Origin: Candidatus Micrarchaeaceae archaeon
Lineage (GTDB): Archaea > Micrarchaeota > Micrarchaeia > Micrarchaeales > Micrarchaeaceae
Assembly (NCBI GenBank): GCA_027310755.1
Contig: DAIDAE010000005.1
Coordinates: 1-41,506 of the forward strand
Direction: 5' to 3'
Length of the DNA stretch: 41,506 nucleotides
Shown here: positions 9,493 through 30,700 of the stretch, piece after piece
How positions within the stretch are numbered: position 1 is the stretch's first letter
Layout: each line of letters opens with the position of its first letter
Notes under the pieces: generated by a model
Database searches by the model: none
Seen by the model: only the letters and a program-made list of their open reading frames with translations
What the model was told of the DNA's origin: nothing
Program-made: the position numbers and the translations under genes

Positions 9493-10236
9493 CTATCCCT
9501 TAAGCTCTATGTATCCCTCGCGCACCATGAGATCAAGGATCTGCTCGACCCTCGGGGGCGTAATCCTGTAGGTACTTGCAAATGCGGTCACGTCTATGGA
9601 TCCCGCGTGCGAGTCTATCCAGTCCTGGACCATGGACATCAGGGATGCGTCTGAATATATTTCGAGCTCCTTGAGCCTGCCCTTTATTTCCGAATTCTCA
9701 TTCTCAAGCATCGATGCCTGGACGGAAAGGTTCTTGTTGGAGTTGGCAAGCTCGATATTGAGCCTCCTCAGTTCCCTGTATTTTGTAAGCAGCGCCTGGT
9801 AGTTGTTGTAGAGCGACCCATATTCCGGGGTCAACGAGCCCAGAAAATCGTCTATCGATGAATCGAGGTGCTGGAGCAGCTGCGTGTTGTCGGCCTCGTA
9901 CAGGTCGGCTATCAACGAAAGGACTGACGTGAGGTTCTTAAGCACGTAAAGCCTCCTCAGTTTTGCTCCGGAGTCGAAACCTATTGAGAATTCGATCTTT
10001 ATCGCTTCCCTGTCGAACGTAAATATCATGAAAAGGTATGGCTTCTTCTGTATGTCCCTGCTTTCCACCTTCACCAGCGTCATATCGGACGGCGTGGTGC
10101 GTATCGAAAACATCTGCAGCGATGACAGCCTGTTCGTTATCGCATCAAAGCTGCCGAGCAATTTTCCCTTGAGCTGGAGGCTCTCTATCGCTGGCTCCAG
10201 GTTAGCCGCGCTTGCATCCTTTGCCTCTCCCGCCAA
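9493..10236 (-). CDS. Cytoplasmic coiled-coil protein with C-terminal winged-helix-like domain
   Basis: 'LLTKYRELRRLNIELANSNKNLSVQASMLENENSEIKGRLKELEIY' coiled coil; 'IDVTAFASTYRITPPRVEQILDLMVREGYIELKG' wHTH-like. Confidence 0.68.
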   Translation of the reverse strand: MAGEAKDASAANLEPAIESLQLKGKLLGSFDAITNRLSSLQMFSIRTTPSDMTLVKVESRDIQKKPYLFMIFTFDREAIKIEFSIGFDSGAKLRRLYVLKNLTSVLSLIADLYEADNTQLLQHLDSSIDDFLGSLTPEYGSLYNNYQALLTKYRELRRLNIELANSNKNLSVQASMLENENSEIKGRLKELEIYSDASLMSMVQDWIDSHAGSIDVTAFASTYRITPPRVEQILDLMVREGYIELKG

Positions 10237-10712: not shown

Positions 10713-11021
10713 TCATTGGTATTCTATTGAGGCGTTGTAGAGCCTGCCTGTCTCGCGCATTATCTTTACCTCGTCCAGGCTGTTCAGCACGTTCCTTATC
10801 TTGAGGTCGTCCACGCCTATCCTCCTGAGGATGTTTCCGAGGTTGTTTCTCGAAAGGCCGGCCTTCGTGAGCATGTCGGAGAATTTCACGACATCGATGT
10901 GCCTGTGCGCCTTCTCCATGTCATTGAGCAGGTTTTCGACGTTTTTCTCCCTGACCTGGAAGGCTATCAACAGTTTCCTGAGCTCCTGTCTTGTTACGAT
11001 GAACGTTTCGGATTTTACCAT
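10713..11021 (-). CDS. Small all-helical protein related to the C-terminal domain of the neighbouring ATPase
   Basis: ELRKLLIAF...VENLLNDM...IDVVKFSDMLTKAGL...LGNILRRIGVDDLKIRNVLNSL pattern matches residues near the C-terminus of the 11029..12531 product. Confidence 0.65.
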   Translation of the reverse strand: MVKSETFIVTRQELRKLLIAFQVREKNVENLLNDMEKAHRHIDVVKFSDMLTKAGLSRNNLGNILRRIGVDDLKIRNVLNSLDEVKIMRETGRLYNASIEYQ

Positions 11022-11028
11022 ACCACCA

Positions 11029-12531
11029 TCACGTATTTGAGATTATCCTTGCTATTATCGCGTCGTCGAGGCCGATGTTCTTCAGGAATGAGGCGATAAC
11101 GGCGTTATCGACATTTGCGTTCCTGAGCTCCTGTATGAATTCCCTTGTCTTTATGCTTCTGGACTGCGAATCCATCTTTGAGAATATCGCCTCGATGCTA
11201 TCGGATGTCATGTTGAACTCTATGAACTTTGTCCTGAGCTCCTCCTTTTCGAACTGATATTCCTTCTGTATTATGTTCGCCGATATCTCGCTAGAGGCAA
11301 GTATGTCGGTCAGGTCCAGGATGTACACATACAGCGGCTCTTCGCCGTGTATTTTCTCTATTATGAACGTTGATGGAAACCTTGTTGCAGTGGTGAACAG
11401 CATCTCCACTGCGGCCTGCCCGACGCCGAAGTTGCTTATCTCATTCCTTATGAAGTTTGAGAAATTTATCGAGGTCTGGAGATAGTTCAGGAACTTCTCG
11501 AATTTCGTCCTGAGTATGAAAGTCGTGCCGACGTTAGAGAATATGTCCTGGTTTATGTCTGTGGGCTCCTGCGAGGCGACTATGAGCCCGAACTGGTATT
11601 TCCTCCCCTCCCTGATTATGGTTATGGCATCGCTTTTTGGATCGCTCGCCACTTTCCATGCCTCATCGAGGACCACGAGCAGCTTCAGGCCCTTGGTCTC
11701 GCTGAATCCCTCGGCCCTCATCTTCTCCTTCAGCGTCTGCAGTATGAAGAGCGCGGCCATCGCCCTGAAATTCTCATCAGGAAGGCCGGACAGGTCTATG
11801 TCCACAAGGCCGGAGGTTATCAGCTTGCCCAAATCGAGCGTGCTCTCCCTTGCAAAATAATCGTCGCCCTCCCTCGCAAACTGCCTCAGCCTGTATACCG
11901 CGTTCTCCAGCTCGGCCGGGTACTCATATGTCCCCTCCTGGAGCTTCTCCTCCAAAAGCGCTATCACATCCTTGAGCGTCGGCGCCTTCTTTCCTTCCGG
12001 CGGCTTGTCCGCTATTATATATCCCATGTTGACGTATGCCTGCTCTATCGCCTCCTGCGTGAGCCTTTTTTGTTCGGGGAAAGTCGAAATGTCTGATATG
12101 ATATCAAAGGAATTCATGATCTGCTTTACCCTGTCCAGCGGCCTTATTCCTGCAAGGTCCATTATGTTCATGTAGGAGCCTTTCCCGAAGGACACCACAA
12201 CGCCCCCGCTCTGGATCGTCCATTTCTTGTACTCCCCGGCGAAATCCACTATGACCGCGTTAGCGTTCCAGATATAGCTTGCCCTGAGGAGGAAGGATTT
12301 CACGAAGTAGCTTTTTCCGGAGCCAGTCACTCCAACAATCGCTATATGCGGGTTAGTGAGATTGGAGAACGTCCATGAGAAAGGTATGTTGAAAAGTTTT
12401 GTCGTTCCTATGTAGATCGCTTTCATGGGGTCGTTGATGAGTATGTCCGCCGGCGGCTCGGGAGGCCTGCTGAAGAAGGAGCGCCTGCCTATCTGGCTCC
12501 CCATTATGTATTGCAGTTTCAATAGCGACAT
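11029..12531 (-). CDS. VirB4/HerA/CedB-type secretion ATPase
   Basis: Walker A 'GVTGSGKSYFVKSFLL', Walker B 'LKLLVVLDEAWKV', sensor 'GLIVASQEPTDI'. Confidence 0.88.
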   Translation of the reverse strand: MSLLKLQYIMGSQIGRRSFFSRPPEPPADILINDPMKAIYIGTTKLFNIPFSWTFSNLTNPHIAIVGVTGSGKSYFVKSFLLRASYIWNANAVIVDFAGEYKKWTIQSGGVVVSFGKGSYMNIMDLAGIRPLDRVKQIMNSFDIISDISTFPEQKRLTQEAIEQAYVNMGYIIADKPPEGKKAPTLKDVIALLEEKLQEGTYEYPAELENAVYRLRQFAREGDDYFARESTLDLGKLITSGLVDIDLSGLPDENFRAMAALFILQTLKEKMRAEGFSETKGLKLLVVLDEAWKVASDPKSDAITIIREGRKYQFGLIVASQEPTDINQDIFSNVGTTFILRTKFEKFLNYLQTSINFSNFIRNEISNFGVGQAAVEMLFTTATRFPSTFIIEKIHGEEPLYVYILDLTDILASSEISANIIQKEYQFEKEELRTKFIEFNMTSDSIEAIFSKMDSQSRSIKTREFIQELRNANVDNAVIASFLKNIGLDDAIIARIISNT

Positions 12532-12577: not shown

Positions 12578-13411
12578 CTACTGTTCGACATCAAAGTTTG
12601 AATGCATTTCATTAAAGTCTACTGGGAGCATGAAGCTGTACCTGAATAAAATATAAAGCTCCCTGCCGACTATGCGCGTGAGCTGCGTGTTCATCCCGCT
12701 AGCCGCCACCTGCAGCTGCTTTACCTGTGCGGCCAGCGCGTCCAGGGCGCTCTTCTCGCTGACGCCCACCGCCGTCGTCTCGAAATACATCAACGATGCC
12801 ATTGGCTTTTCCCCTCCTCCTATGTTGTCTATCTGCGCCTGGATGACATTGATTTTCCTCTGGATGCCCCCGATTATGACCTCGTTGGAGTTCTTCGCCT
12901 GCAAAGCCTTCGACATCTCAAACTCCTGGTATGAGCGCTTGCCCTCCAGCTCGTCCCTGACTATTTGCACATCCCTAGCCACCGAAAGCACATGAAACTT
13001 GAATGCGAATTTCACGCTCATGACCATCTTTTCCCAGGCATCTATGGCCTGGACCTGCTTCATCTCAAGCCCCTCCTCTGTCTGCTCCGCCTTGAAAACG
13101 AATGCGAATAGGTTGGAGGTTACAAAACCGGTTGCATAATACAGGCCATTGATGTTCTTTATGACGGCGTCCTGCCCCTTTGTTATCTTATAGTCCTTGA
13201 ATGGCTGGAAGGTTATGCCGAGCATCCCGGTGATGAGGGGAAAGACAAAAAAGTCAGCGAACGTCATCGCCACCAGGAAGGTCAAATTTAGGGCGGCAAG
13301 AAGCACGGCGAGCACGCTCCATATCCCGCCGCCGAATGCCCCGAGGTTTGCTATGATGAGCACTGGGACTATTGCGCAGAAGACAAGATACATTATAGCT
13401 TCTTCATCCAT
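12578..13411 (-). CDS. VirB3/VirB4 N-terminal-domain-like membrane protein (paralog B)
   Basis: Two N-terminal TM helices then soluble domain 'FAFKFHVLSVARDVQIVRDELEGKRSYQEFE...'; 277 aa, same architecture as the adjacent 277-aa ORF. Confidence 0.6.
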   Translation of the reverse strand: MDEEAIMYLVFCAIVPVLIIANLGAFGGGIWSVLAVLLAALNLTFLVAMTFADFFVFPLITGMLGITFQPFKDYKITKGQDAVIKNINGLYYATGFVTSNLFAFVFKAEQTEEGLEMKQVQAIDAWEKMVMSVKFAFKFHVLSVARDVQIVRDELEGKRSYQEFEMSKALQAKNSNEVIIGGIQRKINVIQAQIDNIGGGEKPMASLMYFETTAVGVSEKSALDALAAQVKQLQVAASGMNTQLTRIVGRELYILFRYSFMLPVDFNEMHSNFDVEQ

Positions 13412-14237
13412 TCAGGTCGCCCTCGTTCATCTGCTGCGCCATCTGTTCGGTGGTGGTCGAATACGGTATGAGGTACTCGGGCTCCACGAACTTCAATATG
13501 TCCTGGCCGGTTATGACGCTCGGCTGCACGCCAAAGACCGCCGCTATCCCGGACATGACCTCGCGCGCCCTCTGCTGCGCAGTGGAAAGCGCCTCGTATT
13601 CCTGGTCGCCCCTCGCAGACACCATTGCATACGTGACCATCTCCAGCGATGTTGTTTTTCTCACATTATCGAGCATCGTCTGCCACATGGATGCCTTCCC
13701 ACGCGCCCTGTGTACTGCGCTTTCCGGAGCCCCTGTGCTTGTGAGCGATGATTCCTCCAGCTGTGCGGCACTTGCGTTGCTCCTTATCGTGTTTATGTAA
13801 TTGTCCTTGTTCATTATGTAGATCTGGCTGGTGTACCTGACGGGCAGCTCGCTGGCGCTCACCAGTTTTGTCAGCTGGGTGGAAAAATTCAGCTTCTCCT
13901 CATCGGTCATCTCGGTGCCGGATCTGTAGAGCGGTATCCTAACAAAAACGGTGGAGACGTATTCGCCGCCGTCCTTGGTCAATATGGCATCTCCGGCGGA
14001 GGAAATCCAAAACGCATCCTCGTTGCTTATCACTATGTCCCTTTTCCTCTGGCGGAACACGGGCGTAATCAGATAGGAGTACCCCCTCACGGAGAGCGCA
14101 AGGCATGAGAAGAAAATGCCGATGATGAGAAATATTATCTTGTATACCGGGAGCAGCGAGGATATGCCTACAGTTATCACCACGATGGCGACTCCGGTCG
14201 CAAAAAACCCAAGGAACATGAACAATCTGTTGTCCAT
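13404..14237 (-). CDS. VirB3/VirB4 N-terminal-domain-like membrane protein (paralog A)
   Basis: Two N-terminal TM helices, 'EMTDEEKLNFSTQLTKLVSASELPVRYTSQIYIMNKDNYI...'; overlaps downstream gene by 8 bp. Confidence 0.6.
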   Translation of the reverse strand: MDNRLFMFLGFFATGVAIVVITVGISSLLPVYKIIFLIIGIFFSCLALSVRGYSYLITPVFRQRKRDIVISNEDAFWISSAGDAILTKDGGEYVSTVFVRIPLYRSGTEMTDEEKLNFSTQLTKLVSASELPVRYTSQIYIMNKDNYINTIRSNASAAQLEESSLTSTGAPESAVHRARGKASMWQTMLDNVRKTTSLEMVTYAMVSARGDQEYEALSTAQQRAREVMSGIAAVFGVQPSVITGQDILKFVEPEYLIPYSTTTEQMAQQMNEGDLNG

Positions 14238-15658: not shown

Positions 15659-16924
15659 TCACAGGAACGTCCTCATCGTTCGCGTACTTGCAGATGCCCC
15701 TATGAAATTGGCCATCTGCGTTATGAAAGAATAGGTGATCGCTATTGTCAATATCGGATAGAAAATTATCTGCAGCCAAAGGCCATTCATCACGCTCAGT
15801 ATGGTCCCGAACAGGCTGCAGGAGCTCGGGATGAAGCTGCCGTTTATTATCCCGCCGCAGGCGCTCGCATTCAGATTTGAGGGGTACGGGTTGACACCGG
15901 GAGAATAGAGGAAGGCGAGAAGAGTGGGCGCCACAAGGTAGAATCCCATCCCCAATGCTATCAGCATTCCTCCAAGGCCCCGCGTGGGCAGTATGGCCCT
16001 GAAGACTATTCCAAGTATGACAAAAACCGGCCCTATCACCGAGAAGAATATTAGGAGATAGTATATTCCCCATAGCACATAAAGCCCGTCTATCAGGAAG
16101 CTGGCGACAAGGCCCTCTGGGAACACGTACTCGATCTGGGCGAAAAGTTCAAGGAGGGAGATGCCGTTCGTAAGCAGGCCCAGCGCCAATGTTCCCCCCG
16201 TCCCTGCGCCTATATTTATCTGTATGTTCTGCGTTGTGACTGCGGCGACGAAAGCGTAGTCTGTAGAAATGACGCTCTGGAACTGGACCCCCGCCGTGCC
16301 CCCCAAGTTTACATTTTCGCCGGACACGAACGGGCATCCGGAAAGCCCGCTGGGGGGAGGATTTGGAACGCCCCCGCTCAGGGCAGGATCCTGCCCAATC
16401 ATGGTGTTGCCGTTTATTATGCAATCGTAACTCCATTCTGTTTCATTGATCGTAGTGAGCAGGGCGTTTGTTGCAACGGCATACGGATCGGTGACCGTTA
16501 TCGACGGGGTTCCGCCCGCGGCACTGCCAAGATTGTTTATCAGGGTGGATGGTATGGTCTGCAGTATGAGGCCGCTGATTAGGAAAAAGGATCCGACTAT
16601 CAGAGCTGTGGCTATGGCCTCATACAGTTCGCCTATGCCAAAGTTCCTAAGCCTGTCCAACTTTGTGGCCGTGCCTACCATGAAAATTATGGCGGCTATG
16701 GTGAACGATAGGAGCACGGCGACGAGCGCTATGGGGAACATGCCGCTCCATACGCTGCAGATCTCTCCCTGTATTGATGATGCAAGGAAACCGAGATTGC
16801 AGCTGTACGGTCCGTAGCTTCCGGTGCCGACTTGCGCAAATGCCACTGCGGCAAGCATTGAAAATAGGAGTATGGGCAGAGCGAGCCTTAATTTTTTAAC
16901 TGCGGTAATGGCCACGTTTGTCAT
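15659..16924 (-). CDS. VirB6/TrbL/CedA-like polytopic membrane protein (paralog 6)
   Basis: Signal/TM N-terminus; motif 'FVILGIVFRAILPTRGLGGMLIALGMGFYLVAP'; 4-bp overlap with upstream gene. Confidence 0.7.
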   Translation of the reverse strand: MTNVAITAVKKLRLALPILLFSMLAAVAFAQVGTGSYGPYSCNLGFLASSIQGEICSVWSGMFPIALVAVLLSFTIAAIIFMVGTATKLDRLRNFGIGELYEAIATALIVGSFFLISGLILQTIPSTLINNLGSAAGGTPSITVTDPYAVATNALLTTINETEWSYDCIINGNTMIGQDPALSGGVPNPPPSGLSGCPFVSGENVNLGGTAGVQFQSVISTDYAFVAAVTTQNIQINIGAGTGGTLALGLLTNGISLLELFAQIEYVFPEGLVASFLIDGLYVLWGIYYLLIFFSVIGPVFVILGIVFRAILPTRGLGGMLIALGMGFYLVAPTLLAFLYSPGVNPYPSNLNASACGGIINGSFIPSSCSLFGTILSVMNGLWLQIIFYPILTIAITYSFITQMANFIGASASTRTMRTFL

Positions 16925-18060
16925 ATCAATCCAACCAGCAAAGACATAAAGTCTATCCTTTCACCTATCGCCCTCGAAAAGTCGACTATGAATGCATCGA
17001 CTATGGTAAAGTTCAGGAAGCCTATGAAGGTGAGCCCGGCGAGCGCGGCGCCAAGTGCAAACACCCATGGGCCGACCGGAAGTGAGGCCGGCGCCCCGAA
17101 GACCGCGGGGAGCAGCTGCAGGAACGATACCAATAGGTCGGTGCCCAGCCCGGAAATGGTGCTCGGAGATGAATATATACACAGCAGGGTGCCCGGCGCG
17201 CATCCGATCGAATTCTGCAGCGTGGTGTCAATGAAGCCGTATGTTATGGATGTTACGAGCGGGTATATCAGCCCAAGGCCCAGGCCGAGGGCTATCATGG
17301 CGCCCCCGAATGTTCTCATGAAGCCGAAAGACCTTGCTATCAATCCGAGTGTTACGAAGAACGCAAGCCACATCAGCGAACCTGCAAGCAGCAGGCTCTG
17401 GACCTGGTTTATTATTTCAAGGAGCAATATGCCGGAGAATGCAAAGGAGAGCGCATCCTGCGTCCCCACCGGGAAGAAGCTGCTCAGGGATGCACCGCCA
17501 TTGAACTGGAGGTCGGTGCCGGTTGGAGCAAGCGTGAGCGTGAAGCCGAATCCCGGGGTGAAGCCCATGAACATCGTCACGAAGAACGTGGCCTCGAACA
17601 GGCCGAATGCGTAGCGGTTGAACACTGCCATGTCGCACGTGGCGATGCTAAACACGTCCTGGGCCGACGAGCAGTTGAACTCTCCAGTTGTCGGGAGAAG
17701 CCCCACGCTTTGCAGCGCCTGGTTTGGATCCAGGGTGAAGAGATATACGAAGGCCAGAAATATTACGATGAGCGCTATTGAAAGTATGCCCTCGTATATC
17801 TGGAAGCGCGCCCATCCCCTTCCGGACGGGCTGTCTATCAGGCCCGAGAGCATAAAGACGAGCGCGGCCACCGCTATAACAGCCAGGACCACGAGGAGCG
17901 CCAGTCCGAAGAAGTTTGTGGGAAGCGCGGGCAGCCCGACGGGCTGGCTCTCCGCGAAAATCGGGAATACCATGATGAATATTATGGCTATGGCGAACGC
18001 CCTGCGAAGGGAGTTGTTGGCATCATTGCCCTGATCCTTTGTGTTGTTGATCTTCCTCAT
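16921..18060 (-). CDS. VirB6/TrbL/CedA-like polytopic membrane protein (paralog 5)
   Basis: Motif 'FVTLGLIARSFGFMRTFGGAMIALGLGLGLIYP'; ATGA overlaps on both sides. Confidence 0.7.
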   Translation of the reverse strand: MRKINNTKDQGNDANNSLRRAFAIAIIFIMVFPIFAESQPVGLPALPTNFFGLALLVVLAVIAVAALVFMLSGLIDSPSGRGWARFQIYEGILSIALIVIFLAFVYLFTLDPNQALQSVGLLPTTGEFNCSSAQDVFSIATCDMAVFNRYAFGLFEATFFVTMFMGFTPGFGFTLTLAPTGTDLQFNGGASLSSFFPVGTQDALSFAFSGILLLEIINQVQSLLLAGSLMWLAFFVTLGLIARSFGFMRTFGGAMIALGLGLGLIYPLVTSITYGFIDTTLQNSIGCAPGTLLCIYSSPSTISGLGTDLLVSFLQLLPAVFGAPASLPVGPWVFALGAALAGLTFIGFLNFTIVDAFIVDFSRAIGERIDFMSLLVGLI

Positions 18061-19190
18061 ATTATGTTCCTCAATGTATGCTTTGAAGCCAGGCTCGGCG
18101 CCCCGAGAAGATCTCCGGCTCTTTCCATGAAATCAAATGCTATGATGATTGCAAGTATAAATGCGAGCACAAGATAGAGCAGCTGTGCTATTGCACTGAC
18201 TATTACCCCTTTCGTTATGCCAAGACCCAGCTCGCCATAGGATGGAAGCCAACTGACCCCGGGCTGGATATTGCTCGTGAGCTGGCCGAGCGATGAAGCC
18301 GATATCGTGGATGTGGCGACGCTCACGTTCGCTATGAGCAGATAGAGCAATAGCGGGAAGAGCAGGTAGAATGCCACGAACATGCCCAGGAATGATCCGC
18401 CCGCCGCTCTTGTGAACGGTATGGTCCTCAATATTATCCCAAGATAGAGGAAGAGGGGGGCTATCGCATAGAATATCGCGAGTATCGCGGCGCCGGCGAG
18501 CGGAAGCGCTATGAGACCCACAAGAACGGGTATCAGCTTGCCGTATATCTGGGTGGAAAATGCCAGGCCGGCGAGCGGTTTTGCGCTGAATCCCTCGTTG
18601 GTGACGTACGCCCCGTAGGTTATGCTGCTTGAGAACTGGACAATGTCCGAGGCTACAGCCAGGGGTATCAGGTCAGTGGATAGCGCGGTGAGCGAACCGC
18701 CTGCAAGGCTGGAGCAATCGTTCTGGAATATGCCCTGGCTTATCACGCCTGGTGCCAGCGCCAGGTAGTTGCCCGGGACCGGCAGCGAGTTTTCAATCTG
18801 GAAACCCCCGAGGAATATGAACACTATTATGGCGGTCACCATGACCTCCCCTATCTCGGTCTTTCCAAAACTGACCAGCTGCGGGATCTTTATCGCGCTG
18901 CCCAGGAGGTACATAAGGGCGGCGATGTTCAGCATCAGCAGCAGCAACAGCAGCGTTATGACTATCAGGCTGTTGGCCGCGTATATGGGCCCGGAACTGT
19001 TGGAGAGCACTTGTGTGCCCACGAAGCTCTGGCAGAATGCAGTGGCATCGCTGTAAGGAGCCGGCAGCGCGGCTGCCGTTGCGACGGGCAGCGCCGTGAA
19101 GACGAGCAGAGCAACGCAGGCCAGCATGAGCCTGGGCACGGCTCTGCCACCGAACGCGTGTTTATCCATGTTTTTATTCTCATTCTCCAT
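18057..19190 (-). CDS. VirB6/TrbL/CedA-like polytopic membrane protein (paralog 4)
   Basis: Motif 'FLYLGIILRTIPFTRAAGGSFLGMFVAFYLLFP'. Confidence 0.7.
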   Translation of the reverse strand: MENENKNMDKHAFGGRAVPRLMLACVALLVFTALPVATAAALPAPYSDATAFCQSFVGTQVLSNSSGPIYAANSLIVITLLLLLLMLNIAALMYLLGSAIKIPQLVSFGKTEIGEVMVTAIIVFIFLGGFQIENSLPVPGNYLALAPGVISQGIFQNDCSSLAGGSLTALSTDLIPLAVASDIVQFSSSITYGAYVTNEGFSAKPLAGLAFSTQIYGKLIPVLVGLIALPLAGAAILAIFYAIAPLFLYLGIILRTIPFTRAAGGSFLGMFVAFYLLFPLLLYLLIANVSVATSTISASSLGQLTSNIQPGVSWLPSYGELGLGITKGVIVSAIAQLLYLVLAFILAIIIAFDFMERAGDLLGAPSLASKHTLRNII

Positions 19191-19196
19191 GCTTGA

Positions 19197-20852
19197 TCAC
19201 ACCAGCCTTGAGAGCCCTGCAAGCTCCACGTCGCCTCCAAGAATTCCGGACAGGCCGATTATTCCTGCGATTGTTATTATTATATTCATGATCGGGAGGA
19301 AGTAGGCGGATATGCCAAGTATCCCGTATGCCTGTGTTATCCCGAAAACCATTCCCTCGCCGTCGCTGTAGTACTGAACTGGGCTGAATATTGTGTAGCC
19401 TCCGCCGGATCTTGATTTCGCGGACACGTAATTCGCGGCGTTCACTGCAGGGTATGTTCCCTGCGCCGCCCCGAACCCGCAGACTGGAACGCCGAAGGCG
19501 CCTACATCATTTATGAATCCTTGGGGATTCTGTGGGGCCACTGACAGCAGGGTTTGCCACCAATCGGAAAGAGGCGGGGCGTTACCGGTTATCCAATTCG
19601 ATATCAGATGCCACAAGGCGCCAAGGTATATGCCGGGAGTATTGGTATCTATCCAGACAAGGAACTCGCTGCCTGTCAGGCCAGCCCATGGCCAGCAGCC
19701 GCAGTCGGACGCTATGCCGCTTATGCTGGGAAGGTTGAAAAAGTCCAGTCCGTACCTATATCCGGCATTGCCGCAGAATATAAGGTTCTGGTCTAGGAAG
19801 CCGTAGCCATTGACATTGCCGTTTATCGCAGTGTTGTTGGATGCGAGATACTCTATGGAGAACATCGTCGGATAAATCAGTATGGCGCCTATTGCGATCG
19901 CTATCAGCAAACCGCCGATGCGCCTGAGGAAGAATACTCCCCTCAGTACCAGCCCGGCAAACAGCAGCCACGGCCACATGAATATGAAGATGTTGTCGAA
20001 GAGAAGCTGTGCGACGAAAGAGCCTATCGCGTAGTAGAGCAGGCTGCTCGTCGTGGTGAGCGCCCTTGTTATGATGTTGATTCCAGCAAGTGGGGTGCCG
20101 TAGAACTTCAGGTAGAACGAAGGTGCAGGAGCACCCGGTATGGGAGGGACGCCGAAGACGGGGGCGCCCGCACATCCCTCGGCAGGATCTGCGCCCAGGC
20201 AAACTCCCAACGTTATCGTGAACTTGGAAAGGAAGGAGAGGTACGAGTCCAGCACGAAAATGTCATTCAGGGAGCTCCCGGCCTGTGTAGCCAGGTTTGC
20301 AGTTACGGTCGCAGCCGCGGCAAGGGGATAATCAATCAGTTCTGTGCTGTCAGTGCCGAGACTGCCCGCCGCCGCGGCATTAACGATGTCGCACACGCTG
20401 GGGTTATTCATCGGGCTGGATGGATTGCTCAAAAATTCGGTGCCGACTAGGCTTCCGGGGAGACCGAAGGAGCTCGTGCTTGCCGACTGCTGCGCAATGC
20501 TGCTGCACATTGCGCTGACCGTGCTCGGCGTCAGGACAGTATGATTGGTGCCGGTGACAGACTGCCAGTATAGATTGCCAAATAGGAGCAGCGTGCCTAT
20601 GACTATTCCGGCTATGAGGGCGGTTGCCACTACCTGGTAGAACTCTGCCTTGGCGCCGGCCTTCACCGTATTGTTTGCGAGGATGGAGCCGGCCATGTAC
20701 CATAGGGCGGCTATGAGCGCGTCTATGGTTATTGCGAGTATCACTAATGGAAGATAGCTTGCCTGGATGCTTGAGAATGCGGTGGGCGGGACCGCAAGCA
20801 AAGCGCCGCTGTGGGCCAGTGCATAAATTATATTTTGTTCCAGCATCATCAC
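19197..20852 (-). CDS. VirB6/TrbL/CedA-like polytopic membrane protein (paralog 3, longest)
   Basis: Motif 'LLFAGLVLRGVFFLRRIGGLLIAIAIGAILIYP'; large Cys-containing exterior insert. Confidence 0.7.
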   Translation of the reverse strand: MMMLEQNIIYALAHSGALLAVPPTAFSSIQASYLPLVILAITIDALIAALWYMAGSILANNTVKAGAKAEFYQVVATALIAGIVIGTLLLFGNLYWQSVTGTNHTVLTPSTVSAMCSSIAQQSASTSSFGLPGSLVGTEFLSNPSSPMNNPSVCDIVNAAAAGSLGTDSTELIDYPLAAAATVTANLATQAGSSLNDIFVLDSYLSFLSKFTITLGVCLGADPAEGCAGAPVFGVPPIPGAPAPSFYLKFYGTPLAGINIITRALTTTSSLLYYAIGSFVAQLLFDNIFIFMWPWLLFAGLVLRGVFFLRRIGGLLIAIAIGAILIYPTMFSIEYLASNNTAINGNVNGYGFLDQNLIFCGNAGYRYGLDFFNLPSISGIASDCGCWPWAGLTGSEFLVWIDTNTPGIYLGALWHLISNWITGNAPPLSDWWQTLLSVAPQNPQGFINDVGAFGVPVCGFGAAQGTYPAVNAANYVSAKSRSGGGYTIFSPVQYYSDGEGMVFGITQAYGILGISAYFLPIMNIIITIAGIIGLSGILGGDVELAGLSRLV

Positions 20853-20854
20853 AC

Positions 20855-22165
20855 CTATATGGCAGACCAGAAGCCTGCAGCTCCCTCAATCCCTGATTCC
20901 AGGGCCTTTGCAAATCCGATTGCAAAGCCAAGCGTAACGGTTATATTTATCGCAAAAAGCACCACCACTATGAACATGAATTCTGAGATGGAGAGGGCGA
21001 TGTATTGCACTCCCTGTATTATCTGGTCGCCGCTGGCATTGACAATGCCGACGAACGGTATGGCGCCGGGGAGCGAGCTGACCTCGTTGGATAGTTGTAT
21101 CATGAAGGCAAAGAAATCGCTCGGGCAGATGGGCAGCGCAAAGGATATGAAAGGGAGGGGGAGGTTGTACGAGCATGCCGTCGAGGAAAACATGCTGTTC
21201 AGGTTGTCATGCGAATATGTTATCAAAAGGTAACCCGCCTCTGGATTGCACGCCGCGGTGTTGGTCGCCCCGATTGCGCACGGGGTGAAGAGCCAATGTA
21301 TGAAATATGAATCGACGACCACCATCACCGGGTACACTATGTACAGCGCTATCGCTATGGCTATCATGGAGTTCGCCGCGTATCTCAGGTTCGCGCCACC
21401 GAAGGGGAGCGACCGCATTACCAGCGCCACTGGGAGTATTATCGCAAATGCAGAGGCCTGCGATATGACCAATATCAGGTACTGGAACAGCATTATTCCA
21501 ACACCCAGCATCACCATCGGGGAAAGTATGTCCAGGAATAGCCCGCTGAGTATCGTGTACGGGGCGGAGAGGTCGACCCCTACTGGCATTTCTATTGATA
21601 CCTGGACGGGTCCCACATTGAATTCTCGGGCGAATGTGGGCCAGAGCTCTCCCAGAGCCGAGCTGATCTGCGACCATATTGCGGCCACTATCGCATACGA
21701 ATACGAAAATGCATACAGCTCTATGCCGAGCCGCGGCCCGGTGTCAAAGGCATAATTTCCTGTGTATGCAAGGGCATAGGCGAACGGATCACCCGGCTGC
21801 GTGGAGGCCGTAACTGCGACATTCGCCTCCTGGAGTGCCGGGAAGGGAATGCAAACCGAGGATCCTACAAATGTGCTGCACACTACAGAACTCTGCGTTA
21901 CTGGATTTGGGTTGCCTATCGCGCTTGTCACGCTAGCCGCTGCGCTGCATATGAAACTAGTGGTTCCGAGCAGCGCCAGTATTATTATCATGCTGATGAA
22001 GACCTGGGTCAGCTCCATCTTCACCACGCCGTTGATCTTCATCCTTGTGCCCCCCGGGAGGAACCTGCTCGCCAGGTAGACGAACGAGAGCACGGCTATC
22101 GAGAGCAGTATGACCAGAAAGTTGTTCCCCAGCCAGCTTGTTCCATAGGTGCATGTGTACGCCAT
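20855..22165 (-). CDS. VirB6/TrbL/CedA-like polytopic membrane protein (paralog 2)
   Basis: Motif 'ILPVALVMRSLPFGGANLRYAANSMIAIAIALYIVYP'. Confidence 0.68.
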   Translation of the reverse strand: MAYTCTYGTSWLGNNFLVILLSIAVLSFVYLASRFLPGGTRMKINGVVKMELTQVFISMIIILALLGTTSFICSAAASVTSAIGNPNPVTQSSVVCSTFVGSSVCIPFPALQEANVAVTASTQPGDPFAYALAYTGNYAFDTGPRLGIELYAFSYSYAIVAAIWSQISSALGELWPTFAREFNVGPVQVSIEMPVGVDLSAPYTILSGLFLDILSPMVMLGVGIMLFQYLILVISQASAFAIILPVALVMRSLPFGGANLRYAANSMIAIAIALYIVYPVMVVVDSYFIHWLFTPCAIGATNTAACNPEAGYLLITYSHDNLNSMFSSTACSYNLPLPFISFALPICPSDFFAFMIQLSNEVSSLPGAIPFVGIVNASGDQIIQGVQYIALSISEFMFIVVVLFAINITVTLGFAIGFAKALESGIEGAAGFWSAI

Positions 22166-22172
22166 TTTGATA

Positions 22173-23531
22173 TCACGCGAGTTTCATTTTTCCCACACCG
22201 AGTTTTATCTGTCCTCCTAGCGCCCTGGCTATCCCCTGCGCTATTGTCACCCCGATTATGAGATCGAGGATGAAGAGCACGAACTGTATCACCACTGGGA
22301 GCATAAATATGAACATGGGGTTAAGTATTGGATAGATGTCGCCACCCACAAATGCGCTGAGCGCACCGCAGTATCCCGTGAAGAACGCCCAATAATCGTT
22401 CTCTCCAGTAGTAAATAAAGGAATAGGAGGGCATGCGACAATAGTAGATGACCCCAATCCACCCGGAAGGCCTGAGAATACCACGCCCACCAATGGGTTG
22501 AATTCGGATATAACGCCGCAGAGCAGGGTGCCGAGAACGCCGCTCGGGCAGGTGGAGTTGAACGCGTTCAAAATGGCCCCGGAATTTTCTGGATACAAGG
22601 GCGAGAAGAAGTAAACTATTGGGGCATTGAACATCGCCAGGAGCGCCGGGTATATTATTGCCCCTGCTATCGCTAGGGCTATTAGCGTGGCGCCTATCGG
22701 CCTGAGGAACGGTGTGGCCCTGAAGATCAACCCTAGAGGAAGAAGCACACCCAGAGATATGGCAATTACGTCTATGAAAATTGCATACTGGGTTTCCAGC
22801 ACAAGCATCATCGGAAAGATAAGGAACGTGAACACCAGCCCAAGGATGTGCGAACCTCCAGTCACGGGGTTCGCGTCTATTATGGAGCCCGAGTACAGGT
22901 TGAAATCAGATCCGAGGTTCAGGCTGCCAATAAGGGTGTCACCCGCAACGGGCAGCGGCGGGAACGGTATTGTGAAATATGTATTGAGCCTTATGGATTT
23001 TAGGAATTCCGCGCCCATGGAGATACCGAGGAGGTTGTTGAAAGATTCATTGGTGTAGTTTATCGACCCCAGTGAACATCCTGTGCCGAATGTGGAGTAC
23101 GCAGTATAATACATTAGGTCAAAACCGTTTGTAGATGCGCTGGCGCCAAGGCATTTAAGAGGGGCGGTGACGCCAGGGAGTAGGGAGGCAAGGGCTCCGG
23201 AGATGACTATCACGGAAAGTATCACCCCTACTATTAACAGGCTCTTTATCGCCTCCCAAAGCTCGCCCTTGTACCATCCCTTGAACGACTGTATGGCAAG
23301 CACCTCGCCGATCAGGTAGGATATCGCGACTATGGTAAACGACAAAAGGATGGCTATGAATACAAACGGAACCGCGCTGTTTATGCACGTGGCCAAGTCA
23401 GGAACCGTGCCGCTGGCGGTCGCGCAGTAAAAATTGGTGAGTTGCGTGCCGAGCGATGAGGCGCCTGCAGTCGATTGAAGCGCTGCAAAAATGAGAGCAA
23501 CAATGGCCGCAAACCTTAGACCGGAAGGCAT
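22173..23531 (-). CDS. VirB6/TrbL/CedA-like polytopic membrane protein (paralog 1)
   Basis: Motif 'LLPLGLIFRATPFLRPIGATLIALAIAGAIIYP'. Confidence 0.7.
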   Translation of the reverse strand: MPSGLRFAAIVALIFAALQSTAGASSLGTQLTNFYCATASGTVPDLATCINSAVPFVFIAILLSFTIVAISYLIGEVLAIQSFKGWYKGELWEAIKSLLIVGVILSVIVISGALASLLPGVTAPLKCLGASASTNGFDLMYYTAYSTFGTGCSLGSINYTNESFNNLLGISMGAEFLKSIRLNTYFTIPFPPLPVAGDTLIGSLNLGSDFNLYSGSIIDANPVTGGSHILGLVFTFLIFPMMLVLETQYAIFIDVIAISLGVLLPLGLIFRATPFLRPIGATLIALAIAGAIIYPALLAMFNAPIVYFFSPLYPENSGAILNAFNSTCPSGVLGTLLCGVISEFNPLVGVVFSGLPGGLGSSTIVACPPIPLFTTGENDYWAFFTGYCGALSAFVGGDIYPILNPMFIFMLPVVIQFVLFILDLIIGVTIAQGIARALGGQIKLGVGKMKLA

Positions 23532-23595: not shown

Positions 23596-24387
23596 CTATC
23601 TCTTTAGCATCGGGAACCTGGCCATGTATGACTGGCTCTGCAGCACGACAAGGAATGGCATTATGAAAAGGGAGTTGAATATCAGTATTAGGTAGCTTGA
23701 AAGCGCGGCGCCGCCCACCGCTATGAAAATGGAGTCGAATACGCTTAGGAGCATAAACCCGGCAACGAACCAGAGCAGTATGTTGTCCAGCCGCTTGAAG
23801 AAGAATGAAAAGCTCTGCTGCATCGCCCTCCTCAGGCCTTTTTCATCAACGACTATTGACGCCGGGGCGTAGAAGAACAATGGCAGGATCACTATGCTCA
23901 GCACAGCTGCATACACCTCGCTCGCGTTCAGCACGTAGGCGAGCATGTTGAAAAGGACGACCAATACCGTGTATATGAGCAGGACGACGAACACCCTAGA
24001 GGTGTACTTCTCTAGCCCATCCATGACCTCCTTCCTTATTCTTGTCTGCGTCCTGCTGTGCTTTACTATGACATTTATGGCCACTATCGCAAAGCTCAGG
24101 AAAAGAAGGGAAAGGAGGATCGAGAATGTTATCACCGCTGTGGTGAACGGGGTCAGGTTTGTGAGCACGCTGGCCAGCCTCAGGAATATGCCCCCCATGT
24201 CGTTGTATGTCGGGAACGATGCAAAGGCTGGGATCAGGAACGCGATTATGAAGGATATGGAGAATAGCAGTATCAACGGCAGGTGGCTCACGTATATTTC
24301 CGATGAATATTGGAGGGTGCTTTTCATTGAAACCACCGCGACCTGCGATAAGGATGGTTTAGATGGCAAGGAATATAAAGCATGCAC
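23596..24387 (-). CDS. Six-TM integral membrane protein of unknown function
   Basis: Several hydrophobic segments and 'VVDEKGLRRAMQQSFSFFFKRLDNILLWF' typical of DUF-type 6TM proteins; Met at ~24327 is an alternative start. Confidence 0.65.
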   Translation of the reverse strand: MHALYSLPSKPSLSQVAVVSMKSTLQYSSEIYVSHLPLILLFSISFIIAFLIPAFASFPTYNDMGGIFLRLASVLTNLTPFTTAVITFSILLSLLFLSFAIVAINVIVKHSRTQTRIRKEVMDGLEKYTSRVFVVLLIYTVLVVLFNMLAYVLNASEVYAAVLSIVILPLFFYAPASIVVDEKGLRRAMQQSFSFFFKRLDNILLWFVAGFMLLSVFDSIFIAVGGAALSSYLILIFNSLFIMPFLVVLQSQSYMARFPMLKR

Positions 24388-24487: not shown

Positions 24488-24892
24488 TTAGCATCCTCCT
24501 GCCGTCTGCGCATTTGCCACAACGGTCGTTGATGAGTATCCTGTCAGCACAGTCAGGATGTATGGGGCAAGGACTGCTATTATGATGCCTACTACGCCGC
24601 CGAGCACCATTCCCATTCCGTATCCCTGCATTGTCCCTTTTGAGGAACCAGGCATCAGGTGCGAGCCCGCATATAGTGCACCGCCCAATATCATCAGCAT
24701 CAAGCCGATCACAAAGATGGCGGTGGACACTGTTTGATAGACCTGGACTATGGAGCAGAGTACGCTGTTGCTCCCAGCTGTCGACGCAAAGGCCGGCGCA
24801 GCCATTATGCTCAATAGCGCCAGAGCCGCAAAGCCCAGTCTGAATACGTTGTTGTTCGCCGCGGACAACAGCTTGTATATTGGATTGTTCAT
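24488..24892 (-). CDS. VirB2/TrbC/CedA1-like pilin (major pilin candidate 1)
   Basis: Signal peptide then 'LCSIVQVYQTVSTAIFVIGLMLMILGGALYAGSHLMPGSSKGTMQGYGMGMVLGGVVGIIIAVLAPYIL' (two TM with short charged loop). Confidence 0.78.
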   Translation of the reverse strand: MNNPIYKLLSAANNNVFRLGFAALALLSIMAAPAFASTAGSNSVLCSIVQVYQTVSTAIFVIGLMLMILGGALYAGSHLMPGSSKGTMQGYGMGMVLGGVVGIIIAVLAPYILTVLTGYSSTTVVANAQTAGGC

Positions 24893-25082: not shown

Positions 25083-27578
25083 TCAGGAAACAGCAGGGCA
25101 GGCGCCGAGCAGGTTTGCAATTGGTATATTCGCAATCTGGGACACAGCATATACGGACACCGCCGCTATCGCCACGCCCACTATCCCGCCAATCACCATG
25201 CCGATCGCATATCCCTGGAGCGTGCCCCTCTGTTGCGACGGAAATATCGAGGAGCTTTCATAGAGTATTGCCCCGATTATCGCAAGCATCAGGCCTATGA
25301 GGAATATGATCCCATTGATCGTGGAGTATATGCTGCAAAGTTCCCCGCTGAGCGGCGCGACCACTGCGTTTCCAAAGTTTGTCCCGCTGCTGCCTATTGT
25401 AAATGGAGGACCCACAACAAATACCGATCCTGCCACGAATGTATTCTGGTACATCTCACATAGAAGGTATGTATTTGCGGCGAGGCCGCTGCCTGCAGGA
25501 GGGGGGGCACCGGAAGCGGTGGTCCATGTGGCGGTGCAGCTGTCGCCATACTGCGGATAACCTGATATTGCAATTGAACATCCTATCGTAGAGGAGCCCT
25601 GCCGGACAGGCGTCCATGCGCCATTGAGCTGCGGGGTGTAGCTTACCAGGCACCCTCCTTTGCCGCCGTCCGCGCTTGTACCGGTGCACGCCTTGCCGGA
25701 CGACTGCGTGACATCTGAGCACATGCTCTGCAGGTTGCCGATCTGCGCATTCTGCCCTATTGGCAGGAAGTATACGTTTGCGGGATAGTTTAGCGCTTCG
25801 TCGATGTTCGCCGTGATGGTGGATGGGTCGTAGTTTCCATTCTGGTCCGGCTGCATGCCATTGAAGACGGTTATTGTGCCGGATGCTGAACCGAGAAGGG
25901 TGTTGGTGCTGCTTATTACTGTGGGAAATTCTTCGTTGCTGGTCCCGAAGAGGCAGGTGGAGCCATTGCATTGTGCGTTAACGCTTGCAAAGAACAGGGC
26001 GGTGTTCGCCGTTGAATAAGCATATGGGGGAGTGCCGACGGACCACCCATCTCCGTTAGGATAGCCGTAGTTGGATCCCATTTGGAGAGGAGAGGTATAA
26101 TTATAAAGACAGAATGCATAATTGCCGGTCGTCGTTGGGATCCAGGATGGCACCGCCCATCCTCCCAAAGTTTCGCTTTCTATCAGGCACGGTAGCCCTG
26201 CCGCGCCGGCTACGTTGCCGCATGACGGGAGCGACACGACATTGCCGTTGGGGCCGAGTGGGGAAACACATCCCGCGGCGGTTGATCCGCCCGCGGCTTC
26301 CAGATACAAGTTTGGAGCTGAAGGATAAACGCATGGACCATTGCATGCGCCACTTACAGGAGGAGTCAAATCTCCCTGCAGATACCAGTACCACCAAAAG
26401 GGGGATTTGGTGCTTGTGTCCGGAATTGGATTCAGGATGCATCCCTTTATGCCCTTACCTCTGGTTGTGCTGTAGCAAGCCCCGGAGAGCTTCCAGCCTG
26501 AGCTCGGGTTCTGCATTTGCAGCATCCCGGGCTGGTCTGCTCCTGTAATATTTATGCTGCCTATCGCGCTCCAGCTTGGGCCGGCTGGAGTTTGGGGAGG
26601 CGGGCCCTCATTGGTGCCCTGGTAGAAGCCGCATACATCATACACCCCCTGCGGCAGCGTATCGTTTGTTATGTATGTCATGTTGCAATACGTGGGGCTC
26701 CAGCCCTGCGCCGAAGCTGGCATTGCCACGTTCGCAGTATCGAAAAGGCAGGGAGGATATGGATTCTGGGCGAAGCCACCGGTGCTGATGGCCTCATTGC
26801 AAAGAACATTCGTCGGGGAAGATGAGGTCGTGAGCGTAGTGGTCAGCTTGTCCGGGGCGGCGCATGAACCCCCGGGCGCGGAGAGCTCTATGAGCGTAGC
26901 GTCTGTGCACGAAGCATTGTATACTACCTCGCTGATGTAGGTGGAGGTTCCCGGGATCAGCTTCGTCGCGGCAATGCTGAGTTGGCTTGATATTGGATAT
27001 ATGCCGTTTAGAACAACCTCCGCATCGACAAGACTGCTGCAGGTGCCACTTCCGGCGCCGGAAGTTATAAACACGTTATATGTGCCCGGGGGTTCTGATA
27101 TTGTATTCTGGTATGTAAGGCACCAGTCCGTCGTGTGGCCTGAATCCACCACAGTCCCGCTGATTGTGTTTGTTATCTTCCATGAAACATAACCGGTGCT
27201 GCCGCCGCCAGCGGAGAGAGCGAGCTGCCCGCCTGTCCATATGCAGATTGCATTGGTAGATGTACTGTAAGCACTTTCAGATACTGAAAAGCCGTTGCAG
27301 CTGTTGCTGATGGATCCGCTAGAAGTTACAAAAAGGGTCTGGAAGACTTGCAATCCGTCCGTAGTGTCAAAAGCGCTTACCGTGGAGATGCCTGGGGCCG
27401 TGGCGGTTATGAGATCCTTCGTATTGGTTGCAACAGGATTAATTGATATACTCAGCGTGGGCATGCCGCTACTGTAAGTTCCAGGATTTGCCTGTGCTAT
27501 TGTATTGTACGGCAGGAGAACTAGCATGGATATTACGATACAGAGCATCACTGTTTTAGGAAGACTGCGATTCGTCAT
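25083..27578 (-). CDS. Giant secreted protein with C-terminal pilin-like (VirB2) two-helix module
   Basis: Signal peptide; Cys/Thr/Ser-rich exterior; C-terminal 'LCSIYSTINGIIFLIGLMLAIIGAILYESSSIFPSQQRGTLQGYAIGMVIGGIVGVAIAAVSVYAV'. Confidence 0.75.
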   Translation of the reverse strand: MTNRSLPKTVMLCIVISMLVLLPYNTIAQANPGTYSSGMPTLSISINPVATNTKDLITATAPGISTVSAFDTTDGLQVFQTLFVTSSGSISNSCNGFSVSESAYSTSTNAICIWTGGQLALSAGGGSTGYVSWKITNTISGTVVDSGHTTDWCLTYQNTISEPPGTYNVFITSGAGSGTCSSLVDAEVVLNGIYPISSQLSIAATKLIPGTSTYISEVVYNASCTDATLIELSAPGGSCAAPDKLTTTLTTSSSPTNVLCNEAISTGGFAQNPYPPCLFDTANVAMPASAQGWSPTYCNMTYITNDTLPQGVYDVCGFYQGTNEGPPPQTPAGPSWSAIGSINITGADQPGMLQMQNPSSGWKLSGACYSTTRGKGIKGCILNPIPDTSTKSPFWWYWYLQGDLTPPVSGACNGPCVYPSAPNLYLEAAGGSTAAGCVSPLGPNGNVVSLPSCGNVAGAAGLPCLIESETLGGWAVPSWIPTTTGNYAFCLYNYTSPLQMGSNYGYPNGDGWSVGTPPYAYSTANTALFFASVNAQCNGSTCLFGTSNEEFPTVISSTNTLLGSASGTITVFNGMQPDQNGNYDPSTITANIDEALNYPANVYFLPIGQNAQIGNLQSMCSDVTQSSGKACTGTSADGGKGGCLVSYTPQLNGAWTPVRQGSSTIGCSIAISGYPQYGDSCTATWTTASGAPPPAGSGLAANTYLLCEMYQNTFVAGSVFVVGPPFTIGSSGTNFGNAVVAPLSGELCSIYSTINGIIFLIGLMLAIIGAILYESSSIFPSQQRGTLQGYAIGMVIGGIVGVAIAAVSVYAVSQIANIPIANLLGACPAVS

Positions 27579-27706: not shown

Positions 27707-30700
27707 CTACGGATTTACGGGAGGATTTGCACCGTAGTTATACGTATATAGAGATCCATTACCGCCGGAAGCGCCTTGGAGAATGCCGTTTTTGCCATCA
27801 CAATTTGGACCCATAGTACCTGCCTGACCGCCACTATAAGATATACCGCTCGTTGATCCCAGCACAGAATTGAACGCCAGCACCACTATGCCACCACCGC
27901 CACCACCGCCTTGCCCTGCAAATACGCAGCCCTCCTGACTTTGTTGCGTAGTGCTAGGGGATCCGCCCATTTGACCGCCGGCCAATATAGTACCAGGGTT
28001 TAACACCACAGCCTGGATGTACAGGCCATATGCACCCGAACCGCCGGCTGCGCCTGCTTCAGCAGCGCCATTAATACATCCGGAGCCGCCGCTGCCGCCT
28101 CCTGCACCCTCGAGATATTGATACATCCCATTACCAAACCATGATGCCAGATTATTCTGCCAGCCCGCCGGCAGCTTGGCATTTGCCCCAGAGTATGGAC
28201 CCGCGCACGATCCTCCGTTGGTATCGCATCCTATTCCATTGGCACCATCTGTTGTGCCAGATGCGGGAAGGGTAAATCCCCCATAACCTGTTTGTGTTAT
28301 GGGTGCTGAACCTGTGTAATAGCACGAGGGTTCGCCTCCTCCGATACCGCAATTGCTCTGAGAGAGATAATTGTAATCGCCCACGCCCCCTCCGCCTGAG
28401 CCACCATAGGATGAGCTTGCGGAGATGCCATCATTTGCATATGAGCCGCTGCCGCAGCTTCCTCCGCAGAGGACACTGCATGCGCTTGGCTGTACACCAC
28501 CTGGGGCGCTGTTCCCTGTTATTATCATGCCAGAGTTAGTAAACACTCCTCCAGTTATTATACTGTAGCCCGCAGTTGTGAGTGTAACACCGGGTGCGAT
28601 TGTCACATCGCACTGAGTATTCACGTCACCGCCGAGGGTCTGGCTGGAGGAGAATATTGTCTGGCATCTCGGATCGACGATCAATGTGGCCTGCGAAGAC
28701 GTGCCGGTCAATGTGTCAATAGCAGTATAGGTGTAGCTGCCTGGCGTGTCCCATATTCCAGTGCTCCCAGAGCATCCGCCTGTACCGGAACAGACCGTCC
28801 CAGTGCTGCCACCGGGGCCAATCGGACCAGTCACTTTACACGTGTCTCCACTCACTCCGAATGGCAGCGCACATATGACTGTGGAACTCTGATATGTGAA
28901 TATTGAGCTTGGGTTTATGCTTATCGTTGGAGGGGGTGCGGGCTGGACGTTGAGTATTATAGAATTGGTGGTGTCCAATGTGGTGTCGGTAGCTGTATAG
29001 GTGTAGCTGCCTGGCGTGTCCCACGGACCCGCTTTTCCAGAGCAGCTGTTTGTCGAGGGCCCGCAGATGACCGTGCTCCCCTGTATTATTTCCACGCTAT
29101 CCCCGCTTAGGACAGTGGTGGCGGTGACGGTTGTGCTGTGATACGCGTATATAGGATTGGCTGCAAGTTTTATTATCGGAGGGGGAGGGGTTGAGGTAAG
29201 AGTTGCTGAATTCGCAGTTTGGGTTGTAGTATCTAAGGCCCAGTATGTGGTTGTGCCTATGCTTGAAGGTGTGACTGAAGCGGTGCACGTTCCCGCGCTT
29301 GGCCCGCATAGCGGGGTTCCGAAGAACGACGCCGACACCTCACACAAGTCAGTGCTTGGGAAGCATGTTGCAGTGACCTGCGCACTGCTTCCGGCGTATA
29401 CTGGGTTGGGCACTATTGAAATATCTGGAACTGTTGGAGATGGAGGCGGGAGTATTGTATTGGTGCTCGGGGTGTTGAATCCCTGTAATCCTGCACCGCT
29501 GCATGAATTGAGCGCCAATATCTGCCCTACAGACAAACCTGTGCCCACGGTGAGGAAGTATATAGATACCACGGTTATCACCGCGCTGGCAACGCCGGCT
29601 ATGACCAATCCCATTCCATAAGCCTGGGCCTGGCCCCTCGCCTGCCCTGGCAGGAGCGATGCGCCCGCATAGAGGACGGTGCCGATGAGCATTATCACCA
29701 ACGCGAGCACGAAAAGAGATTCCGATACATACAGGTACAGGGAGCACGCCGTATTCTGTATCGAATTGAACCCCGCAGGGGTACCGGTCGATGTCGAGCA
29801 GAATGGGTTATAGCCGTTGCAGGAGCCGGTGGTGAAAAATGTGAATCCCCAGAACATCCCGTTGTCGGTTTCCGGGGAGGTTATACCGTCACCCTGGACG
29901 GCCGGATTGTATGGCGGGACATTCTCGTATGCACAGACCTCGTAATTATTCGGGGACAGGCGAGAGGAGTCGAGTTCCGCCGAGACCGCAACCGGGTCGG
30001 TTGACGATAGTGTGGTGTAGCCCGCGCTTCCCAAAAGGCAGGGAAGGTTTGCGGTTGTCGGGTCTGCCATGATCTGCGAAGAACGGCGCACGGCTACCGT
30101 GTAGGTCGGGCACGCAGGCATTATCCCTGGATCTACACAGTACTGGCTGCTGAAAAGGGCGCCGCTCACGGAGTCCGGGCTCGACAGTTCAAGATATATA
30201 TTGGTAGGGTTCTGCAAGGACGTCTGGTAGCTGCCGGTGGAGCACCCGGAACATGTTATAGCCGTGCCCACCGCCGATATGCTGTATGTATTTGCACCGG
30301 TATTAATCGCGTTTACTTGCAATGGGGAGAGCATGTTGTAGACCGGTACATAATACGGCCCATAAACCACGTTTCCATCGGCGCCTGATCCCCCATAAAG
30401 GGCATTTGCCAATATTGCATTTGTTACGGCAGTGCCAGGCGTGTCCGGCGATGACACAAAGCTTGACGGGATGCTGGTTGTTTCTCCATTGTACGTCCAG
30501 TAGCATTGCGCCGCATCCCCATTGCAGGCGCCGGTGGTTCCCGCCCTTGAGATATCCGCCACGATGATAGTGTAACATAGATTGTAGATTCCCGGACCCT
30601 TGTTTATGATTCCGGCACCGTTTATCATGTTGTCAGTGACCCATCCAGTAGCCACGCAGTCGAACGGACCTAGGCCGTGTCCCGGGCCGCATGAGCTTGC

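Follow-up and report, generated by a model that had tools for sequence, protein, structure and literature searches.

What might six different VirB6-like proteins, encoded one after another in a single operon, be building? The question is raised by a stretch of DNA of 41,506 nucleotides from a Candidatus Micrarchaeaceae archaeon (GenBank assembly GCA_027310755.1, contig DAIDAE010000005.1), which is referred to here as the window and corresponds to contig C55 of genome G000 in our own numbering (a genome of 0.87 Mb, approximately 90% complete). A first-pass annotation, made from the letters alone, had described six tandem, highly divergent VirB6/TrbL-like paralogs belonging to a type IV secretion system (T4SS). 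Indeed, six consecutive open reading frames (ORFs) occupy positions 15659-23531 of the minus strand, exactly where that annotation had placed them; in transcription order they encode proteins of 452, 436, 551, 377, 379 and 421 amino acids (aa), with spacing between -4 (a 4-bp overlap) and +7 bp, and they form part of the operon for a Ced-like T4SS in this Micrarchaeota genome. The set is constant in number and order across the class, has been copied only as a whole, and probably provides the subunits of one membrane assembly.

The genes are named here as slots, numbered in transcription order:

22173..23531, minus strand: VirB6/CedA-like paralog, slot 1, 452 aa; hhalign against the other slots 98.7-99.5%
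20855..22165, minus strand: VirB6/CedA-like paralog, slot 2, 436 aa, lacking a separate signal peptide and with the most divergent motif
19197..20852, minus strand: VirB6/CedA-like paralog, slot 3, 551 aa, the largest, with a Cys-rich insert and conserved Cys; hhalign against the other slots 96.1-99.2%
18057..19190, minus strand: VirB6/CedA-like paralog, slot 4, 377 aa, the most CedA-like
16921..18060, minus strand: VirB6/CedA-like paralog, slot 5, 379 aa, overlapping both neighbours by 4 bp
15659..16924, minus strand: VirB6/CedA-like paralog, slot 6, 421 aa; hhalign 97.3-99.6%

Mutual homology of the six proteins

Profiles were built for each slot from about 40 genomes, and in profile-profile comparison of these hidden Markov models (HMMs) with hhalign all 15 slot pairs are homologous, with probabilities of 96.1-99.6% and E-values from 3.5e-9 to 1.5e-23. 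In the controls, other proteins of the operon stay at or below 9.4% and reversals of the other slots' profiles at or below 9.3%, while a slot profile compared with its own reversal can reach 78.7%, a palindrome-like effect of helices. The same controls rule out X263, a multi-transmembrane protein encoded just upstream of slot 1, as a seventh VirB6 (at most 9.4% against the slots). At the level of BLAST the similarity is weak (a search of the genome with slot 1 retrieves slots 6 and 3 alone), and the description 'highly divergent' is correct, since in the joint alignment identity to slot 1 is approximately 14-23% for the other slots.

The sequence features by which the first-pass annotation had recognized the family proved to be only partly general. 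Its second motif, G-x-x-x-R-x-x-x-F-x-R-x-x-G-G/A-x-x-I-A...P, is clean in five of the six slots and has a variant form in slot 2 (VMRSLPFGGANLR...YP). Of the first motif, the common core (Y/F-L/M near the end of one transmembrane (TM) helix, then a conserved Glu opening the next) is shared, whereas the 'TALIVG' part is present in some copies only. A separate N-terminal TM helix, ascribed to all six, is missing from slots 2 and 3, in which the first core helix comes at the very start of the protein. Individual slots also have conserved residues and Cys of their own, slots 2 and 3 being the most deviant in motif and length.

Six genes in a fixed order across the class

The genomes compared are mostly metagenome-assembled genomes (MAGs), and the census is confined to a single class within one phylum. 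The relatives were retrieved by name and are recorded as Micrarchaeota (some MAGs are titled Marsarchaeota or Mancarchaeum), with the cultivated Ca. Micrarchaeum A_DKE among them. An array was counted only if it was not cut by a contig end. Within the window's order, two families yielded 37 such arrays; ten genomes belonging to other families of the class yielded 17, and eleven further genomes 18. All 72 uninterrupted arrays, from 58 genomes and many families, hold exactly six VirB6 genes, and no slot has been lost or amplified separately; a constant paralog number with all members kept, as would be expected of a hetero-oligomeric paralog ring, is thus found in 72/72 arrays. The last of the three counts was made by coordinates only, with three corrections applied. 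Apparent arrays of five and seven genes in the coordinate census were rejected as artefacts of merged ORFs of equal open-frame length (G061:C48 and G130:C20) and of one frameshifted gene counted twice (G130:C16).

Presence and order in related genomes had been proposed as a check of the set, and the six genes prove to be positional orthologs across the class. Specifically, in a FastTree phylogeny of 128 proteins the 19 positional groups need 19 changes, compared with a minimum of 18 and approximately 101 for shuffles. With IQ-TREE, slots 2 and 5 each form a single clade across the class (96 and 98, respectively) and slot 4 is split; for slots 1, 6 and 3, holding the slot together improves on the free tree by 13.6, 8.4 and 13.6 log-likelihood units (lnL), respectively, so that a class-wide clade of slot 1, for example, is not rejected. 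FastTree placed slots 1, 3 and 6 of the window's order (M1, M3 and M6) apart from their positional partners. This separation was not accepted as true history and was put down to long-branch attraction, given that in the nearest other family the three are paired correctly by HMM scores and that the held-together trees are better. Given positional orthology across the class, the sextet most likely predates the split of these families.

Duplication of the whole set and single-copy relatives

Two complete sextets are found in seven of the ten class-level genomes read, in several families. Separate trees of each slot recover the same split into two sextet types, without mismatch in four trees and with a single extra member (one mismatch) in the other two, and the set was therefore copied once as a unit, with both copies keeping all six genes. 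In two-sextet genomes (six of the seven were checked, together with G091) there is one sextet-type ATPase, with an E-value below 1e-197, and the sextets are not adjacent to it; a second, weaker ATPase occurs where a single-copy system is present. At loci L080, L082 and L088, in two-sextet genomes, giant secreted proteins (1300-1640 aa, with a CC motif early in the sequence) come after one of the sextets, and no ATPase lies nearby.

Several Micrarchaeota carry a minimal cassette, VirB2-VirB6-VirB3/4N-ATPase, in which the gene order is the same but VirB6 and the VirB3/VirB4-N-terminal-like (VirB3/4N) gene each occur once. Such cassettes lie at L096, L099-L108 and L110 (the pilin is not always found), and G076 and G126 also hold a sextet. 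Each of the six slots matches the single-copy VirB6 profile at 99.0-99.8% (slot 6 at 99.8%), and this, together with the same gene order, identifies the sextet operon as the minimal cassette with VirB6 multiplied by six and VirB3/4N by two. Both trees group the single-copy proteins in one clade. As the trees do not settle the placement of this clade relative to the slots, we can only infer that the single-copy state is ancestral.

VirB6 fold and similarity to CedA

Fold evidence covers two of the six slots. The AlphaFold2 model of slot 4 has a predicted local distance difference test score (pLDDT) of 77 and a predicted template modelling score (pTM) of 0.72, and among re-aligned chains of the PDB its best match is 7o3v_G, the VirB6 protein TrwI of R388 (Z 9.3, 241/261 residues). 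The slot 2 model (pLDDT 77, pTM 0.74) likewise ranks R388 TrwI first (Z 9.2, 230/268 residues; TrwI chains at Z 9.0-9.2), with DotA, the VirB6 of the Legionella Dot/Icm system, fourth at Z 8.4. Unrelated folds, which the first-pass annotation had named as the outcome that would speak against kinship, were thus not obtained for this pair. It was re-alignment with VIA that brought TrwI to the top: Foldseek with the slot 4 model against the PDB returned nothing under E 0.001, with TrwI at ranks 3 and 8. Sequence searches of the PDB with the slot 4, single-copy VirB6 and VirB3/4N profiles gave nothing relevant. By eye, TrwI bears a similar G/A-PLF...T-x-R turn, which is a resemblance and not a test.

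A second line of evidence comes from CedA, the archaeal VirB6 homolog (PMC9905601). The NCBIfam CedA model (NF041796) gives sub-cut-off matches in 19 of 60 relatives, apparently mostly to slot 4, the best at 4.9e-7; its curated cut-off of 330 is exceeded in none of the 60 (best approximately 28 bits). Among 14 control genomes, Sulfolobus alone matches. The models of two of the six, the sub-threshold CedA similarity, and the CedB/VirB4-like ATPase and VirB2-like pilin of the same operon together support the six genes as VirB6-like paralogs of a T4SS, much as had been claimed.

Neighbouring genes of the operon

The pilin and three hairpin-bearing proteins lie upstream of the slots, and the VirB3/4N pair, the ATPase, p102, p247 and p795 downstream; this gene order is identical in the relatives read. 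The genes are as follows:

27707..31165, minus strand: secreted protein, 1152 aa, with an internal VirB2-like hairpin
31614..34259, minus strand: secreted protein, 881 aa, with a C-terminal VirB2-like hairpin
25083..27578, minus strand: secreted protein and pilin-adhesin fusion, 831 aa, with the VirB2-like hairpin at its C-terminus; recruited to the pilin family by iterative HMM search
24488..24892, minus strand: VirB2/TrbC-like pilin, 134 aa; Pfam TrbC 2.3e-5, 24.9 bits, just below the cut-off of 27.9
23596..24387, minus strand: X263, conserved multi-TM protein, not VirB6
13404..14237, minus strand: VirB3/VirB4-N-terminal-like protein, copy a, 277 aa, with TM helices and a soluble domain
12578..13411, minus strand: VirB3/VirB4-N-terminal-like protein, copy b, 277 aa; hhalign 97.4% to copy a
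11029..12531, minus strand: CedB/VirB4/HerA-like ATPase, 500 aa; Pfam DUF87 3e-17 and AAA_10 1.2e-13, NCBIfam CedB 2.5e-19 and VirB4_CagE 4e-8
10713..11021, minus strand: p102, a separate copy of the ATPase C-terminal domain; matches ATPase profile positions 423-498 (E 7.9e-8), order conserved
9493..10236, minus strand: p247, conserved operon gene, possibly coiled-coil; position kept in relatives
6940..9327, minus strand: p795, membrane protein conserved in relatives, comprising a large extracellular domain plus a cytoplasmic tail; no Pfam match

For the ATPase, CedB (NF041017) is the best of all NCBIfam models, at 69 bits against a curated cut-off of 700. As regards a VirD4-type coupling protein, such as conjugative T4SSs have, the genome holds only this CedB/VirB4-like ATPase and one weak partial ATPase match. 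VirB4 appears to be divided between two proteins, an N-terminal membrane part and a stand-alone ATPase, the former doubled here (12578-14237); position, topology and sequence, with no family model confirming it, suggest the VirB3/4N identity of the two copies. None of VirB8, VirB9, VirB10 and VirB11 was found among the 20 locus proteins scanned against Pfam, and no genome-wide search was made for them. The three hairpin-bearing secreted proteins are pilin-adhesin fusions that could be built into, or tethered by, the pilus machinery. A gene of the TnpB/IS605 OrfB type (14297-15556, minus strand; Pfam OrfB_IS605 and Cas12f1-like_TNB) has inserted into the operon, separating slot 6 from the VirB3/4N genes.

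Relation to known systems

The closest known systems are the Ced/Ted DNA-import systems of Crenarchaeota, in which CedA corresponds to VirB6, CedB to VirB4 and CedA1/TedC to VirB2 (PMC9905601). Both share an archaeal T4SS core made up of a pilin, a VirB6-like channel and a VirB4/HerA-like ATPase, the ATPase here being closest to CedB and the VirB6 proteins weakly matching CedA. However, Ced is described with one CedA, whereas the Micrarchaeota locus has six VirB6 genes, two VirB3/4N-like genes, pilin-adhesin fusions and conserved extra genes, and its matches, although significant as remote similarity (CedB 2.5e-19, CedA 4.9e-7), lie far below the Ced cut-offs.

The statement that T4SSs usually use one or a few VirB6 proteins needs qualification. 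Multiple VirB6 genes per se are already known, since the rvh T4SS of Rickettsiales has 3-5 copies (PMC10732058), and in Anaplasma four tandem virB6 genes are co-transcribed (PMC7648143). Tandem divergent VirB6 paralogs with extensions, a VirB4 duplication and a host-dependent lifestyle are common to rvh and the present system; the rvh copy number varies, however, and VirB8-VirB11 are kept there, whereas in Micrarchaeota the six is fixed class-wide, sextets are duplicated whole and the locus proteins scanned included no VirB8-VirB11, and there is no sign of a common origin of the two expansions. Four paralogs are also reported to interact in Ehrlichia (Bao 2009). An episymbiont T4SS with tandem expansion of a component also exists in Patescibacteria, where it is essential for epibiotic growth in one strain (PMC12102498), but there it is the pilin VirB2 that is expanded, to a variable 2-11 genes, and not VirB6 to a constant six. 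R388 TrwI and Legionella DotA share the fold, but are single-gene homo-pentamers (PMC12857230).

No description of this system in Micrarchaeota was found in the openly accessible literature, subscription papers lying outside the search; the Mia14 paper, although it includes type IV pili in its lists and raises the possibility of conjugative elements, makes no mention of VirB genes. What appears to be new is the exact class-wide six in an archaeal Ced-like system, the whole-sextet duplication and the single-copy relatives.

What the six proteins may build

The reading favoured here is that the six products work as one obligate hetero-oligomeric VirB6 channel or pilus-assembly platform that uses all six, which the evidence makes reasonably probable. 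A mixed assembly is preferred because genes that are always six, in fixed order, with touching reading frames (they abut or overlap by 4 bp, as those of co-translated subunits do) and duplicated only whole behave like the subunits of one assembly. More specifically, the single VirB6 of a pilin-VirB6-VirB3/4N-ATPase cassette would probably have become six ancient, positionally fixed VirB6/CedA-fold subunits, which most likely co-assemble into one membrane channel or pilus-assembly platform. The simplest form would be a pseudo-sixfold ring, one of each slot, on the ATPase motor, comparable to the MCM2-7 or Rpt1-6 rings. These are hetero-hexamers that arose by gene duplication, likewise fixed six-paralog sets replacing a homo-oligomer, although the proteins are unrelated and the comparison is an analogy only. 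That simplest 1:1:1:1:1:1 hexamer has a little less than an even chance. Much the same caution applies to the fuller proposal, in which an obligate 1:1:1:1:1:1 hetero-hexamer would entail a change of symmetry from the pentamer and several lineages would have two alternative complete six-subunit channels, perhaps serving different hosts or cargo, with a single ATPase driving both.

Several observations weigh against this picture. Regarding identity, the Pfam TrbL model (PF04610) has no match in the genome at E <= 10, and Pfam scans of the six proteins and of single-copy relatives show none either; TrwI as a single sequence gives no signal in profile comparison; and Z scores of approximately 9 can be reached by chance for helical proteins, even if chance hardly accounts for two independent models both placing the same family first. 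Regarding assembly, co-assembly, stoichiometry and ring symmetry are inferred; individual slots might serve in different complexes or at different times; and six paralogs do not match the known symmetry, since the solved VirB6/DotA assemblies, located between the membrane motor and the pilus, are homo-pentamers (PMC12857230). The hetero-oligomeric ring suggested by the first-pass annotation gains a good deal of strength from the constant six, the fixed order, the whole-set duplication and the one motor for two sets, and is a probable rather than a demonstrated assembly.

The same annotation had offered a different pilin-adhesin substrate for each copy. Subfunctionalized parallel channels, with every VirB6 assembling into a homo-oligomer dedicated to one pilin-adhesin or effector, would account for the strong divergence of the slots, their slot-specific conserved residues and Cys, and the several pilin-adhesin fusions of the operon. 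One VirB6 per pilin-adhesin predicts, however, that the two vary in number together, and none of this is seen: pilin-like and adhesin genes differ in number, kind and size among genomes, whereas the VirB6 genes are always six. The idea is therefore not supported in its substrate form, and with one ATPase, whole-set duplication and no slot lost or amplified separately, parallel channels in general are unlikely. The pentameric symmetry of R388 and DotA (PMC12857230) speaks for an equally improbable arrangement, a pentamer of core slots with one or more peripheral or regulatory paralogs (e.g. the large slot 3 or slot 2, the most deviant in length and motif), or else a stack of two mixed rings. 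Yet core motifs occur in all six, their presence is equally conserved and no member is marked as dispensable. Interdependent paralogs in other rings have been explained by constructive neutral evolution, and a neutral ratchet of this kind, in which tandem duplication fixed six subunits without new function, is in keeping with the one VirB6 of the single-copy relatives. It is compatible with a hetero-oligomer and addresses why there are six rather than what they form, but retention in reduced genomes argues for some use, and as a full explanation it is the least probable of those considered.

Substrate and direction may be either DNA import, as in Ced, or exchange with a host cell: by analogy, the Ced similarity suggests the former, and the pilin-adhesins suggest host-cell contact.

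Implications

The construction of VirB6 channels is a live question, for which the known structures are homo-pentamers. Here each position has its own gene, and position-specific roles are therefore testable, while the single-copy relatives provide an evolutionary before-and-after of the VirB6 expansion. A conserved, probably ancient transfer machine is thus identified in the host-dependent Micrarchaeota, which bears on exchange with their hosts, and its gene set suggests that these tiny archaea have a transfer channel of six unlike parts in place of the usual one-gene channel protein.

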